Source of the DNA: an uncultured Actinomycetes bacterium
GTDB taxonomy: Bacteria; Actinomycetota; Acidimicrobiia; Acidimicrobiales; SZUA-35
Direction: 5' to 3'
Assembly (NCBI GenBank): GCA_902826025.1
Contig: CADEDH010000029.1
Span: 1 to 33,457, forward strand
DNA: 33,457 nt
Each line of letters starts with the position of its first letter. The first letter of the stretch is position 1. Positions 19,734 through 24,232 of this stretch are shown piece by piece. The translations under genes were made by a program, and so were the position numbers. The notes beneath the pieces were generated by a model. The model made no database searches. It was not told where the DNA came from and saw only the letters and a list, made by a program, of their open reading frames with translations.

Positions 19734-19873
19734 GAGAAGCCTCGACACGGGCAACGGGTCGCTGAACCTGAGTTTCGTGGATGTTTCGAATCACGCTCCC
19801 CCCTCGTCAGAAGTGCCCTCCACGCTTCCCGTGACGGCATCCGGCCGTCCTTCGATTGCCCGAGGAGTGCAAC

Positions 19874-20152
19874 GTGAATGGTGTCAGACGAGCAGTAGTG
19901 GTGGCGGCGATCAGCGCAGTGTGCCTGGGGGCGTGCGGTGACGACAGTCCCTCACCCGTCGACGCCGGCAACAGCGGGACCACCGAGGTCATGACGGACG
20001 AGACGGATGTCATGACCGATGGGACCGAGGTGATGACGGACGAGACGGATGTCATGACCGATGGGACCGAGGTGATGACGGACAAGACGGATGTCATGAC
20101 CGATGGGACCGAGGTGATGACCGACAAGTCGACATCGACCACGGGCGGCTGA
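19874..20152 (+). CDS. Small lipoprotein with seven methionine-containing heptad repeats
   Basis: 92 residues, family not recognised. The GTG start is supported by GAGGAG 6 bases upstream. A signal peptide (NGVRRAVVVAAISAVCLGAC) ends in a lipobox with C21, followed by a short Ser/Pro/Asp linker. Then come seven back-to-back heptads of the form T-[ED]-V-M-T-D-[EGK] and a KSTSTTGG tail. One methionine recurs every seven residues (7 in 49), and the repeats are strongly acidic and Thr-rich, so the mature chain is probably extended or disordered outside the membrane. Possible roles are a sacrificial oxidant scavenger or a metal-binding peptide. It is one base ahead of a DipZ-like thioredoxin gene and divergent from a SUOX-family molybdoenzyme operon. 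Repeat number may vary between strains. Confidence 0.8.
   Translation: MNGVRRAVVVAAISAVCLGACGDDSPSPVDAGNSGTTEVMTDETDVMTDGTEVMTDETDVMTDGTEVMTDKTDVMTDGTEVMTDKSTSTTGG
19985..20131 (+). repeat. 42-bp in-frame tandem repeat (3.5 copies)
   Basis: Three full 42-bp units (19985-20026, 20027-20068, 20069-20110) and a half unit from 20111. The differences are few (gtc/gtg valine codon, gag/aag, acg/acc). Each unit is itself two diverged 21-bp halves, each encoding one heptad. The halves contain the palindromic octamer GTCATGAC or close variants. The near-identity at DNA level suggests recent slippage expansion. There are no spacers, so it is not a CRISPR array. Confidence 0.93.
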
Positions 20153-20783: not shown

Positions 20784-21445
20784 TGGTGCTGGCCCTGGCC
20801 TGCCTGGCGCTGTACGGGGCGGGGCTCACCTCGACCCTCAGCCCCTGCGTGCTGCCGCTGGTGCCGGGCTACCTCGGCGTGTTGAGCGACAGCGACGGCC
20901 GCGCTGGTCGCTGGCCTCGCATCATGCTGTTCGTCCTGGGGGCGGGGGCGACGTTCGTCGCCCTGGGTGGCGTCGCCTCGGCCGTAGGGGCCGGGGTCTC
21001 CGCCACCGTGCAGTGGTCGCAGCGGATCGCCGGGGTCGGCCTGGTGGTCCTCGGCGCTCTCATGATCCTCGGGCGCCGAGGGCGAGTGACGGCCGAGCTT
21101 CGCCTGGTGCGGCGCCTTCCGGCCCAACCTCATCTCCGGGCCCTGTTGCTGGGCGTCGGCTGCGGCGCCGCCTGGAGTCCGTGCGTCGGCCCACTGCTCG
21201 GGGTGGCCCTCACCGCCGCCGGGGGAACCGGCTCGATCGGCCGGGGCTCGCTCCTGCTGGCGTGGTTCGCCCTCGGCGTGTTGACGCCGTTCATGGCCCT
21301 CGGCCTGCTCTCCCTCCGCCCGCCGGGCTGGCTGGCGGCGGCAGGGCGTCGCCTGGCCTCCATCACCTGGGCGGTCACGGTGCTCATCGGTGTCGTCCTC
21401 GCTGCCGGCTGGTACGACCTCGCTGTTCGCCAACTGGCGCGCTGA
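20783..21445 (+). CDS. ccdA: CcdA-like thiol-disulfide transmembrane transporter
   Basis: 220 residues, six predicted membrane helices, no soluble domain. The two pseudo-symmetric halves each carry the redox cysteine of the DsbD/CcdA family: C22 in LSPCVLPLVPGYL and C134 in AWSPCVGPLLG. Family function is to carry reducing equivalents from cytoplasmic thioredoxin across the membrane, here most likely to the thioredoxin-like protein encoded just upstream. In mycobacteria both modules are fused as DipZ; here they are split. The ATG shares one base with the upstream stop (TGATG); a GTG three bases earlier is an alternative. No cytochrome c biogenesis genes (ResB, ResC) accompany it, arguing for a role other than haem attachment. 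Confidence 0.9.
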   Translation: MVLALACLALYGAGLTSTLSPCVLPLVPGYLGVLSDSDGRAGRWPRIMLFVLGAGATFVALGGVASAVGAGVSATVQWSQRIAGVGLVVLGALMILGRRGRVTAELRLVRRLPAQPHLRALLLGVGCGAAWSPCVGPLLGVALTAAGGTGSIGRGSLLLAWFALGVLTPFMALGLLSLRPPGWLAAAGRRLASITWAVTVLIGVVLAAGWYDLAVRQLAR

Positions 21446-21459
21446 TCGGCGACCGAACG

Positions 21460-21488
21460 TTGACTCCGGGCCCCGGGTGGCGTATGTT
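21460..21488 (+). promoter_or_regulatory. Strong sigma-70-type promoter of the DinB-ArsR-SRPBCC operon
   Basis: TTGACT (21460-21465) and TATGTT (21483-21488) are separated by exactly 17 bases. The predicted start of transcription is about 21495, inside the palindrome at 21487-21518. Confidence 0.75.
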
Positions 21489-21518
21489 CAGGCTTCTCTC
21501 AATTGAGAGATACCTGAA
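21487..21518 (+). promoter_or_regulatory. Palindromic operator overlapping the start of transcription
   Basis: A perfect 16-bp palindrome TCTCTCAATTGAGAGA (21495-21510) is flanked symmetrically by TTCAGG (21487-21492) and CCTGAA (21513-21518), with only the two intervening dinucleotides unmatched. A further AATTGAG occurs at 21517-21523, 16 bases after the first AATTGAG at 21501. It overlaps the -10 and start site, the usual place for a repressor, and the ArsR-type protein encoded in the operon is the likely ligand. Confidence 0.72.
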
Positions 21519-21531
21519 TTGAGGAGGGTTC

Positions 21532-22068
21532 GTGGATCCAGTCGAGATGTTCGAGCGGGCGGCCGGTGTCGCCGGCGGCCGGGCCCGGGCCGTGTCGTCG
21601 GAGCAGATGGCTTTGGCCACGCCGTGCTCGGAGTGGGACGTGGCGGCGCTGTTGGAGCATATGGCGGGCGGCCCGAACTACTTGCTGGGCGCCCTGGGGG
21701 CTGAGCCGTTGGGGGGTCTGAGCTGGCCGGACCCGGCGGTGGTCGATGCCTGCGTGTCGCTTCTGCGGGAGCCGGGGGCGTTGGAGCGGCGCTGCATGTC
21801 GCCGGCCGGTTTCGAGTGGTCGGTGGGGGAGGCGGCGGCCGGTACGGCGATGGATCAGTTGGTGCACACCTGGGATTTGGCGGTGGCGGTTGGTGATGAC
21901 CGCAGTCTCGATCCGGCGGTGACGGCGGCCGTGGTTGAGATGTTCCTGCCGGACATGCCCGAGGTTGGTCGCCGGGCGGGGTTCGTCGGCCCGGCGGTGG
22001 TGGTTGGTGAGGGCGCATCGGCGCAGGATGTGCTGCTCGGAGCGATGGGCCGGGACCCTGGACGCTGA
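21532..22068 (+). CDS. TIGR03086-family DinB-like metal-binding protein
   Basis: 178 residues, a four-helix-bundle protein of the DinB/mycothiol-dependent maleylpyruvate isomerase superfamily. Marks of the TIGR03086 group are TPCSEWDVAALLEHM near residue 31-45 and AMDQLVHTWDLAVAVG near residue 105. The histidines there are probable metal ligands. The reaction is unknown; relatives include thiol-dependent transferases. The GTG start has a full GAGGAGG site (21521-21527) 4 bases upstream and follows a strong promoter-operator. It is first of three genes with the ArsR regulator and SRPBCC protein, an association that suggests a small-molecule response. Confidence 0.85.
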   Translation: MDPVEMFERAAGVAGGRARAVSSEQMALATPCSEWDVAALLEHMAGGPNYLLGALGAEPLGGLSWPDPAVVDACVSLLREPGALERRCMSPAGFEWSVGEAAAGTAMDQLVHTWDLAVAVGDDRSLDPAVTAAVVEMFLPDMPEVGRRAGFVGPAVVVGEGASAQDVLLGAMGRDPGR

Positions 22069-22084
22069 GGATCTCGACGATGCC

Positions 22085-22399
22085 GTGAAGGCGATGGGTC
22101 ACCCGGGGCGGCGGGCGATGCTGCGGTTGGCCCGCGATGGTGAGCGTACGGCGTCCGAGTTGGCGGAGGCCGCCGGGCTGTCGCCGTCGGCCGCCAGCCA
22201 GCACCTCAAGCTGCTGAAGGACGTGGGGTTGATGCACGTCCGGGTCGATGCCAAGCGCCGGCTGTACCGGGTCGACTTCGAGCGGCTGGCCCAGGTCCGG
22301 GCGGTGTTCGACGAGCTGTGGTCCGATCAGCTCGATGCGTTGAAGCGTCGGGCCGAAGCCGGGGCCCGGCGCCCGGGGCGACAGGGTCGGTCGGCGTGA
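22085..22399 (+). CDS. ArsR-family transcriptional regulator (second copy)
   Basis: About 104 residues. The winged-helix core is unmistakable: KAMGHPGRRAMLRLARDGERTASELAEAAGLSPSAASQHLKLLKDVGLMHVRVDAKRRLYRVD, with the recognition helix at SPSAASQHLKLLK. There is no metal-binding cysteine motif. The start is uncertain: the GTG at 22085 has only a distant GAGG, while an in-frame ATG at 22028 would overlap the DinB-like gene by about 40 bases. The stop overlaps the next start (GTGA). It is the likely repressor acting at 21487-21518. Confidence 0.82.
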   Translation: MKAMGHPGRRAMLRLARDGERTASELAEAAGLSPSAASQHLKLLKDVGLMHVRVDAKRRLYRVDFERLAQVRAVFDELWSDQLDALKRRAEAGARRPGRQGRSA

Positions 22400-22863
22400 A
22401 GCTGGTGGACAAGACGATCGTGATCGCTGCGCCCCCCGGCGACGTGTACGCATTGCTGACCGACGCCGAGCTGCTCGTCGAGTGGATGGCTCCGATCGCC
22501 CGGATCGACGCCCGGCCCGGTGGTGAGGTGGCGTGGACCCATCACAACGGCGACACCGTGCAGGGTGAGTTCATCGAGCTGGTCCCCGATCGCCGGGTCG
22601 TGTTCACCTACGGCTGGGACCGGGCCGACGTCGGCGTGCCACCGGGGTCGACCGTGGTCGAGATCACACTGAAACCGGTGGTAGCGGGTACCGAGCTGCG
22701 TCTCGTGCACCGGGGTCTGGAGGGTCCGATGGCCGATGCCCACGCCGGTGGCTGGGCCAATTACCTGGCCCGGCTCACCGCTCGGGCCGAGGGGCGGGAC
22801 CCGGGCATCGATCCGCTGGCCGGTGAGCGTGTCCCCACCCGTCGCCAGCTCGGGCTCACGTGA
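22396..22863 (+). CDS. SRPBCC (AHSA1-like) domain protein
   Basis: 155 residues, single START/Bet v1-type domain. Typical elements are VDKTIVIAAPPGDVYALLTDAELLVEWMAPIARIDARPGGEVAW, a VVFTYGWDR strand and a C-terminal helix (GGWANYLARLTARAEG). The GTG start overlaps the ArsR stop by four bases (GTGA), so the pair is coupled. A ligand-binding or lipid-handling role is possible; function is unknown. Confidence 0.86.
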   Translation: MKLVDKTIVIAAPPGDVYALLTDAELLVEWMAPIARIDARPGGEVAWTHHNGDTVQGEFIELVPDRRVVFTYGWDRADVGVPPGSTVVEITLKPVVAGTELRLVHRGLEGPMADAHAGGWANYLARLTARAEGRDPGIDPLAGERVPTRRQLGLT

Positions 22864-22932
22864 CGGCAGGGGACAGGCAGGAGACGGTGGAACAGGGCGA
22901 CTCGGGAGAGGGACTTGTGAGAGGGATGAACG

Positions 22933-23292
22933 TTGACTGACGTCGTTGACGGTGAAGCGCGATTCTGGCGCCTCGCCGAGCCGCTCCTCGATGATGCGGG
23001 TGTGGTCCGCTCGACGATGATGGGCTTGCCCTGCCTACGGGTCGGCGGGGCGTTCTTCGCCTCGTGGGACCGCTCGAATGCGGCCCTCCTGGTGAAGCTC
23101 CCCGAAGTCGAGGTGGATCGGCTCGTCGCCGCCGGCGCCGCCCAGTCGTTCTCCCCGGCCGGTCGCCGATTCCGCCAGTGGGCGTCCATCCCGCTGGACC
23201 AGGAGGGCGAATGGGCGGCGCTGCTCGATCGGGCGCTGCGGTACGTGTCCGAGCTCCCGATCGAGCCGAAGCCACGACGACGTCGTTCGTGA
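22933..23292 (+). CDS. YjbR/TfoX-like small protein
   Basis: 119 residues. The pattern STMMGLPCLRVGGAFFASWDRSNAALLVKLPEVEVDRLVAAG..QSFSPAGRRFRQWASIP recalls the MmcQ/YjbR and TfoX N-terminal alpha/beta fold; the exact subfamily is unsure. The start is TTG at 22933, supported by GAGGG 7 bases upstream; the ATG at 22926 is in another frame and stops at once. It is cytoplasmic with no signal peptide, and its basic tail (KPRRRRS) may bind nucleic acid. It lies 69 bases after the SRPBCC gene and may be read from the same promoter. Confidence 0.78.
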   Translation: MTDVVDGEARFWRLAEPLLDDAGVVRSTMMGLPCLRVGGAFFASWDRSNAALLVKLPEVEVDRLVAAGAAQSFSPAGRRFRQWASIPLDQEGEWAALLDRALRYVSELPIEPKPRRRRS

Positions 23293-23305
23293 CCAGCGGG
23301 CCGTT

Positions 23306-23331
23306 CGCCTCAGCTGCTCCCCGATGAGGCG
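23306..23331. terminator. Hairpin between convergent genes
   Basis: A perfect 7-bp inverted repeat CGCCTCA/TGAGGCG (23306-23312, 23325-23331) with a 12-base loop covers the stop codon of the minus-strand SRPBCC gene and lies just after the plus-strand YjbR-like gene. It is only a moderate terminator candidate. Confidence 0.4.
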
Positions 23332-23816
23332 GCGGCGAGTGCGGCCTGCAGCTTGCCGAAGGCGGCGTTCCAGCCGTGCTCGCCGGGGGAGCCGGAAGGA
23401 ATGCCGGCATGGGTCATGGTCATGCGGGTCTGGTCGCCGAGGTCTTCGAGTTCGACGGTGACCTCGGTGGTGTCGGGGTGGTCCGGAGGCATGCCCATCT
23501 GGCTTGCGGGCACCACGTTGCCGGCGTCGTCGCTCATCGATTCGGTGTAGACCAACCGGGTCGGGACATCGACGTGGCGGTAGTCCCCGGTGAACCACAT
23601 CTGCATCGGTCCGTTCGGTGTGTCCATCTCCATGCAGAGGTGCCGCTTGCCCCCCGCCCGCACGTCCATCCGGGTCACCGAGATCCGTGCGCCGGGCGGC
23701 CCGTACCACTGGGCGAAGGCATCGGGGTCGGTCCACATCTTCCAGATCAGCCCCACTGGGGCGTCGAAGATGCGCTCGATGCGCACCGAGGCGGTCGGGC
23801 TGGCTGTGTTGTTCAT
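23310..23816 (-). CDS. SRPBCC (AHSA1-like) domain protein
   Basis: 168 residues. The opening SVRIERIFDAPVGLIWKMWTDPDAFAQWYGPPG and the VDVPTRLVYTESM and TRMTMTHAGIP strands place it in the AHSA1 subgroup. The C-terminal helix reads GEHGWNAAFGKLQAALAAA. The ATG overlaps the ArsR stop (ATGA), with GGAAGGA about 7 bases upstream. It is more similar in layout to the pair at 12056-12927 than to the one at 22085-22863. Ligand unknown. Confidence 0.87.
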   Translation of the reverse strand: MNNTASPTASVRIERIFDAPVGLIWKMWTDPDAFAQWYGPPGARISVTRMDVRAGGKRHLCMEMDTPNGPMQMWFTGDYRHVDVPTRLVYTESMSDDAGNVVPASQMGMPPDHPDTTEVTVELEDLGDQTRMTMTHAGIPSGSPGEHGWNAAFGKLQAALAAASSGSS

Positions 23817-24181
23817 GTCGTGTCCTTCCGGGGGCGACGGCTCGTGACCGTCTGGAGTTGGTGGACGTAGGTGTCCATGCGGTCGAAGCGGGCTTCCCAG
23901 ATCGGGCGGTACTGCTCGGTCCATGACGACACCTCGGCGAGGGGTGCGGGGTTGAGGGCGCACGGCCGGTACTGGGCATTGCGGGTGCGTTCGACCAGCC
24001 CGGCCCGCTCCAGCACCTTGATGTGCTTCGAGATCGCCGGGAGTTGCATGTCGAACGGGGCCGCCAGGTCGTTGACGCTGGCGGGGCCCTGGGCGAGTCG
24101 GGTCAGGATCGCCCGCCGCGTCGAGTTGGCCAGCGCGGCGAACGTCAGGTCGAGCCGCTGCTCGTCCGTGGCGGTCGGCAT
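23813..24181 (-). CDS. ArsR-family transcriptional regulator (third copy)
   Basis: 122 residues. Core LTFAALANSTRRAILTRLAQGPASVNDLAAPFDMQLPAISKHIKVLERAGLVERTRNAQYRPCALN is typical of the ArsR subgroup paired with AHSA1 proteins, with the recognition helix at LPAISKHIKVLE. The C-terminal helix (SSWTEQYRPIWEARFDRMDTYV) would form the dimer interface. The ATG is preceded by the best ribosome site in the window, AAGGAGGTGA (24185-24194), 3 bases away. A 26-bp inverted repeat 26 bases upstream of the ATG is its probable operator. Confidence 0.9.
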   Translation of the reverse strand: MPTATDEQRLDLTFAALANSTRRAILTRLAQGPASVNDLAAPFDMQLPAISKHIKVLERAGLVERTRNAQYRPCALNPAPLAEVSSWTEQYRPIWEARFDRMDTYVHQLQTVTSRRPRKDTT

Positions 24182-24206
24182 ACTCACCTCCTTGGTTTCC
24201 GGGATA

Positions 24207-24232
24207 GTTAATTTCCGTGTGTGGAAAGTAAC
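24207..24232 (-). promoter_or_regulatory. Inverted-repeat operator of the third ArsR-SRPBCC operon
   Basis: Two 10-base arms (24207-24216 and 24223-24232) match at 9 of 10 positions around a 6-base centre, GTTAATTTCC-GTGTGT-GGAAAGTAAC. They sit in the AT-richest stretch between the ArsR gene and the divergent gene at 24281. It probably overlaps the ArsR promoter and is unlike the operator at 21487-21518. Confidence 0.65.

Follow-up and report, generated by a model that had tools for sequence, protein, structure and literature searches.

What reads the symmetric element at the head of a small actinobacterial operon, and is it one site or two? In the window, that is, the whole 33,457-nucleotide stretch of DNA analysed, a sigma-70-type promoter lies directly downstream of a DsbD-like membrane protein gene that ends at 21445; a 32-bp site follows (21487-21518, centred on 21502.5), in which 14 of 16 mirrored pairs are complementary. 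A sequence-only reading had described a near-ideal promoter and a palindromic operator, through which an ArsR-type protein encoded by the second gene would regulate its own operon. The two hexamers and their 17-bp spacing are present, and they make up the sole sigma-70-type match in 21300-23700, where 0.1 is expected from shuffles; "near-ideal" is nevertheless generous for hexamers that share 9/12 bases with the consensus (5/6 for TTGACT, 4/6 for TATGTT). Further upstream, a small plus-strand frame (19856-20152) carries tandem repeats MTDETDVMTDGTEV after a lipoprotein-like start and precedes thioredoxin-like and DsbD-like genes.

The second gene does encode a member of the ArsR/SmtB family (family profile NF033788, 67.3 bits against a cut-off of 55; PF01022, 44.8 against 22); its start is approximate, with a frame open from 21935 and a possible GTG at 22085. 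More specialised models do not claim the protein: the SdpR-type autorepressor model NF033789 yields 40.9 bits against a cut-off of 100, and the BigR, CmtR and Rv2640c models score far under theirs. Classical ArsR/SmtB metal sensors use a cysteine-based metal site with a CxC-type motif. The window ArsR (P0001) has no cysteine and has histidine only at positions 16, 50 and 61; the cysteine-based site of the classical sensors (ArsR, SmtB, CmtR, NmtR) is thus absent, which makes thiolate metal sensing unlikely. Any signal that releases this protein would likely be something other than a metal. Gene 4 probably belongs to the same operon as genes 1-3 and follows gene 3 in two orthologous operons, too (L031 and L032).

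Table 1. Promoter, putative operator parts and genes of the operon, in window coordinates
Feature	Position	Strand	Basis
Sigma-70-type promoter TTGACT-17-TATGTT	21460..21488	+	TTGACT 21460-21465, 17-bp spacer, TATGTT 21483-21488
Dyad 1 TTCAG-GCTTCT-CTCAA, proposed ArsR dimer site	21487..21502	+	TTCAG invariant in 4/4 operons; CTCAA varies to CTTAA/ATGAA
Dyad 2 TTGAG-AGATAC-CTGAA, proposed ArsR dimer site	21503..21518	+	CTGAA and TTGA each invariant in 4/4 operons
Fifth half-site TTGAG	21519..21523	+	In phase, 16 bp past the previous TTGAG; overlaps ribosome-binding site; weakly conserved
Gene 1, TIGR03086 / mycothiol-dependent maleylpyruvate isomerase-like protein	21532..22068	+	TIGR03086 91.3 bits (cut-off 83); PF11716 27.8 bits (cut-off 24.2)
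Gene 2, ArsR/SmtB-family wHTH regulator	about 22055..22399	+	HTH_5, HTH_20 and NF033788 matches
Gene 3, AHSA1/SRPBCC ligand-binding-type protein	22396..22863	+	PF08327 87.8 bits
Gene 4, YjbR-like protein	22933..23292	+	PF04237 E 7.6e-05, below Pfam cut-off

Everything that the sequence-only reading had picked out in the operator can be found in the DNA: a perfect 16-bp palindrome (TCTCTCAATTGAGAGA, 21495-21510), the arms TTCAGG (21487-21492) and CCTGAA (21513-21518), and AATTGAG at the downstream end of the element (21517-21523). Is any of this unusual? The window holds four perfect 16-bp palindromes in its 33 kb, so length alone is not rare. TTSAG-N6-CTSAA, in turn, occurs twice in the window, both times in the operator; 0.02 copies are expected for the window, and none of 100 shuffles has two; this combination of features is therefore not due to chance. 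Dyad 2 and the reverse complement of dyad 1 agree at 14 of 16 bases, which is why the whole resembles a single 32-bp palindrome. The arms and centre together (TTCAG-N9-AATT-N9-CTGAA, at most one mismatch) match the 6.87-Mb genome once, at the window site; the 14-bp core with two mismatches has one further genomic match, located where an apparent coding region ends on contig 4, which we take as chance.

What evolution keeps is not the palindrome. Close orthologues of the ArsR protein were found by a scan of genome contigs (L031, 89% identity; L032, 85%) and among 397 genomes of the window's order (L046, in genome G209, 76-80%; a fourth, L049, at about 72%, has its promoter cut off by the contig edge). 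The order gene 1-ArsR-gene 3-gene 4 is kept in L031 and L032; L046 keeps the first three genes and its sequence stops soon after. All three readable orthologues (L031, L032, L046) have TTCAG-N22-CTGAA directly 5' of gene 1, with AATTGA in an unchanged central position; this comparison rests on three promoters, of which two resemble one another. When the four operons are aligned on the operator, 17/20 half-site columns are invariant against 2/12 in the spacers (Fisher 0.0002) and 2/33 in the 33 bp upstream. The perfect 16-bp palindrome, by contrast, is confined to the window, being present in none of the three orthologous promoters, and the core CTCAATTGAG, which the sequence-only reading offered as a signature to look for upstream of orthologous operons, is exact in none of them (CTTAATTGAG, ATGAATTGAG, ATGAATTGAC). 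That search thus recovers the element in 3/3 cases but not the palindrome or core by which it had been defined: the conserved parts are four 5-bp half-sites arranged as two abutting N6 dyads. The extra downstream half-site is in exact phase in the window, but the orthologous positions, which also overlap a ribosome-binding site, read TCGAG, TGGAG and ATGGG. The dyad rule itself is inexact even among orthologues, since L031 has TTGAC for TTGAG in dyad 2, and both L031 and L032 have ATGAA in dyad 1. In the recognition-helix region, the ArsR frames of L031, L032 and L049 read SAASPHLKLL as against SAASQHLKLL; in L031 and L032 this change may have accompanied that of the inner half-site of dyad 1 to ATGAA (rather than CTCAA or CTTAA). 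The recognition helix has SPSAASQHL in the window protein and LPSAASPHL in L031 and L032.

Might the element act as RNA? The palindrome starts near the predicted transcription start and could fold, so a hairpin in the 5' mRNA controlling stability or translation might be imagined. Yet folding is no better than in shuffled sequences (z of -0.64 for the window and of 0.05 to 1.17 for the three orthologues), and the orthologues show no paired changes that preserve the palindrome. We reject this reading on the folding scores and regard it as highly improbable.

If the element acts as DNA, which protein binds it? The genome contains 11 further ArsR-like matches, and one might suppose that a DNA-binding protein other than the operon's own ArsR uses the site. 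The distribution of the site argues against this. TTCAG-N9-AATTGA-N7-CTGAA occurs three times among the 397 genomes: in the window, in the orthologous promoter of G209, and within a dnaJ-like frame (L058). A relaxed operator pattern matches in 10 of these genomes, and tblastn finds no relative of ArsR, gene 1, gene 3 or gene 4 at the eight loci other than the window and G209. Because the full site goes with this ArsR in all but one of its occurrences among these genomes, and since the same class of dyad recurs at ArsR genes across the phylum, a different regulator appears quite improbable, if somewhat less so than an RNA hairpin.

How general is the dyad? General palindrome scoring of regions upstream of ArsR genes was swamped by GC-rich repeats, and tests of offset and spacer were used instead; the four orthologous operons entered them with the stretch before gene 1 (set by hand), all other loci with the stretch before ArsR. 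The discovery set comprised 42 loci after exclusion of duplicates (L044, L051, L055), eleven distant loci (L033-L043), L049, whose promoter lies past the contig end, and L022, L028 and L030 (short upstream region or E >1e-8). Shifted against themselves, these regions show similarity at 16 bp (z 9.9; all other offsets from 10 to 30 at z <=1.5). Strict TNAG-N6-CTNA is present in 15/42 loci, whereas no other spacer in the range 0-14 exceeds four; with the four orthologous operons set aside, the count is 12/38 (shuffle mean 0.66, maximum 4; other spacers <=3). A first held-out set, for which the prediction was fixed beforehand, was drawn from relatives of a genome outside the window's class (27 loci, of which 26 were used, L096 not being located; L095 comes from the window's own order) and has the dyad in 15/26 (shuffle mean 0.43, maximum 4). 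A second, of 20 regions chosen unread from match lists (19 located, L102 not; five from the window's genome), has it in 6/19 (shuffle mean 0.27, maximum 3); other spacers from 0 to 14 reach at most two in either held-out set. Spacer 6 thus stands far above the others in every set, for a pooled 36/87 loci, which take in three of the four orthologous operons, or 33/83 non-orthologous ones; these counts ignore kinship among loci, some of which share a genome. The strict dyad is absent from all five readable paralogues of the window's own genome (L097-L101) in the second held-out set and from 26/38 non-orthologous discovery loci, among which the relaxed T.[AC]G-N6-CT.A is once more commonest with a 6-bp spacer (11/26, about 1 expected). 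A link between the dyad and a neighbouring SRPBCC gene is not relied on, as it is significant in the held-out set (12/14 against 3/12, p 0.004), while the discovery set shows no significant link (9/26 against 3/12, p 0.71).

Where strict dyads come in pairs, the distance between their starts is always either 16 bp (12 pairs) or 17 bp (4 pairs). The offset prediction itself was weakly met in the first held-out set: 16 bp is at the top (z 3.7), but offset 29 comes close (z 3.2), and the four best offset-16 loci are not dyad repeats; many loci there have a single dyad. Nine regions upstream of ArsR (L061, L063, L069, L050, L062, L064, L065, L067, L068) carry direct repeats such as CTTATATGCG or CTTAATTGCG at 16-bp steps, a variant class of half-site (T.CG) in the same layout. 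In five others (L081, L084, L089, L104, L114), a GTAAG dyad is followed by a second GTAAG one base further, at a 17-bp step, a possible sister class of spacing. The window has a second ArsR-AHSA1 pair on the minus strand (23313-24227; ArsR start at 24181), with TTTCC-N6-GGAAA at 24212-24227, about 30 bp before that start; this is the sole match in the window (0.00 expected), with the 16-bp dyad geometry of the main operator in different letters.

Could the unit nonetheless be the long palindrome, with a functional centre at AATT (21502/21503) read by a single ArsR dimer or tetramer, or, in a variant, a decamer CTSAATTSAG repeated at 16 bp? The symmetry about 21502.5 and the invariance of the central AATTGA in the four operons are what such a site would lead one to expect, and several homologues have 16-bp direct repeats that would suit the decamer, for example CTCAATTGAG/CTGAATTGAG in the window and TCATATGCGA/TTATATGCGA in L063. 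The centre is, however, degenerate in 3/3 orthologues, and of the 33 strict-dyad loci that are not orthologous, 19 show one N6 dyad alone in the stretch scanned (e.g., L016, L020, L026, L077, L082, L087, L108), so that the unit appears to be the N6 dyad; the footprint of Rv2034 (see below) is likewise centred on an N6 dyad. The long palindrome is thus unlikely, though the strongest of the three alternatives.

We infer that the element is probably the operator of an autorepressing ArsR/SmtB-family regulator, with two ArsR dimers side by side on abutting dyads. The autoregulated ArsR operon proposed from the sequence gains support, both from the element upstream of every readable orthologous operon and from the dyads before many ArsR homologues. 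One dimer would sit on TTCAG-N6-CTCAA and one on TTGAG-N6-CTGAA. In each dyad, 11 bp or about one turn separate the half-site centres, and a single winged-helix dimer could thus grip both; from one dyad to the next the step is 16 bp, roughly one and a half turns, so that neighbouring dimers would sit on almost opposite sides of the helix. In that position they would overlie the last part of the -10 hexamer together with the predicted start site and the leader, thereby blocking RNA polymerase, until a signal, probably not a metal, frees ArsR and switches on the operon for the TIGR03086, ArsR, SRPBCC and YjbR-like proteins. The promoter does not sit in one fixed place: the -35 element is 27 bp from the operator in the window, as against 16, 16 and 17 bp for the TTGAC. 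hexamer of L031, L032 and L046, in which hexamers with A at position 2 and T at 6 (AAATAT, AATTAT, GACTCT) lie 17-18 bp past TTGAC., within the operator. This shift of 10-11 bp, about one helical turn, is suggestive only, seen as it is with four promoters, two of them mutually similar. Whichever the geometry, the -10 and/or start region lies under the operator, in keeping with repression by blocking of RNA polymerase.

A broader proposal, which we put forward tentatively and at slightly under even confidence, is that a large actinobacterial group of non-metal ArsR proteins, many beside SRPBCC genes, shares one operator grammar: 16-bp TNAG-N6-CTNA (or T.CG) dyads would be set head to tail at 16-17 bp, with dimers on alternating faces and cooperative switching. 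The window would be one instance, in which the promoter has slipped by one turn with the register kept. The dyad turns one palindrome into a rule for binding that experiments can test, and it makes the targets of many uncharacterised ArsR proteins in this group predictable from their sequence; stacking at 16/17 bp, in turn, poses a concrete question about cooperative binding by non-metal ArsR proteins. The operon alone would be an ordinary autorepression switch; the grammar shared across the family is the part worth following.

How does the element compare with known systems? Metal sensors of the SmtB/CzrA/CmtR type belong with the window protein to the common ArsR/SmtB family (the NF033788 profile) but differ from it in that the window protein is without cysteine. 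Their operators have half-sites in the opposite order (TGAA...TTCA). Rv2034 of Mycobacterium tuberculosis, reported as an autorepressor of the ArsR family whose operon includes a Polyketide_cyc2 gene, protects from DNase I a site containing CCGTAAGTCTAAACTTACGG, binds two-half DNA more strongly than one-half DNA and is not released by the seven metals tested (PMC3338718). Its footprint, CCGTAAG-TCTAAA-CTTACGG, fits TNAG-N6-CTNA as the window dyads do, and in both cases an ArsR-family regulator shares a small operon with an SRPBCC-type gene. The two systems differ in that one palindromic dyad is reported for Rv2034 and two abut in the window, that the half-site is GTAAG rather than TTCAG/TTGAG, and in gene order, since ArsR is named first in the Rv2034 operon but comes second in the window. 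For NolR of rhizobia, the published consensus is (A/T)TTAG-N9-A(T/A), and a DNA-bound structure is mentioned (PMC12445080, PMC8960804). The spacing is that of the window (TTAG-N9-A equals TNAG-N6-NNN-A), the ArsR fold is shared (PDB 4omy, E 0.00013), and NolR, too, is described as being without cysteine (PMC8960804); the third base of the half-site differs, and the same sources present NolR as a regulator of symbiosis genes rather than a member of an SRPBCC operon. Cooperative binding of multiple sites by ArsR proteins is as such already known, since CmtR is named as a cooperative binder of multiple operator sites in the reference list of the Rv2034 paper (PMC3338718). Among the titles and abstract openings searched, a coverage that leaves out most subscription journals, no description of 16-bp-phased tandem dyads was found for these regulators. 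Apart from that tandem layout, both window dyads conform to the NolR/Rv2034 type (TNAG...CTNA with a 6-bp spacer), and the element would appear to be an ordinary autorepressor operator of a known kind.
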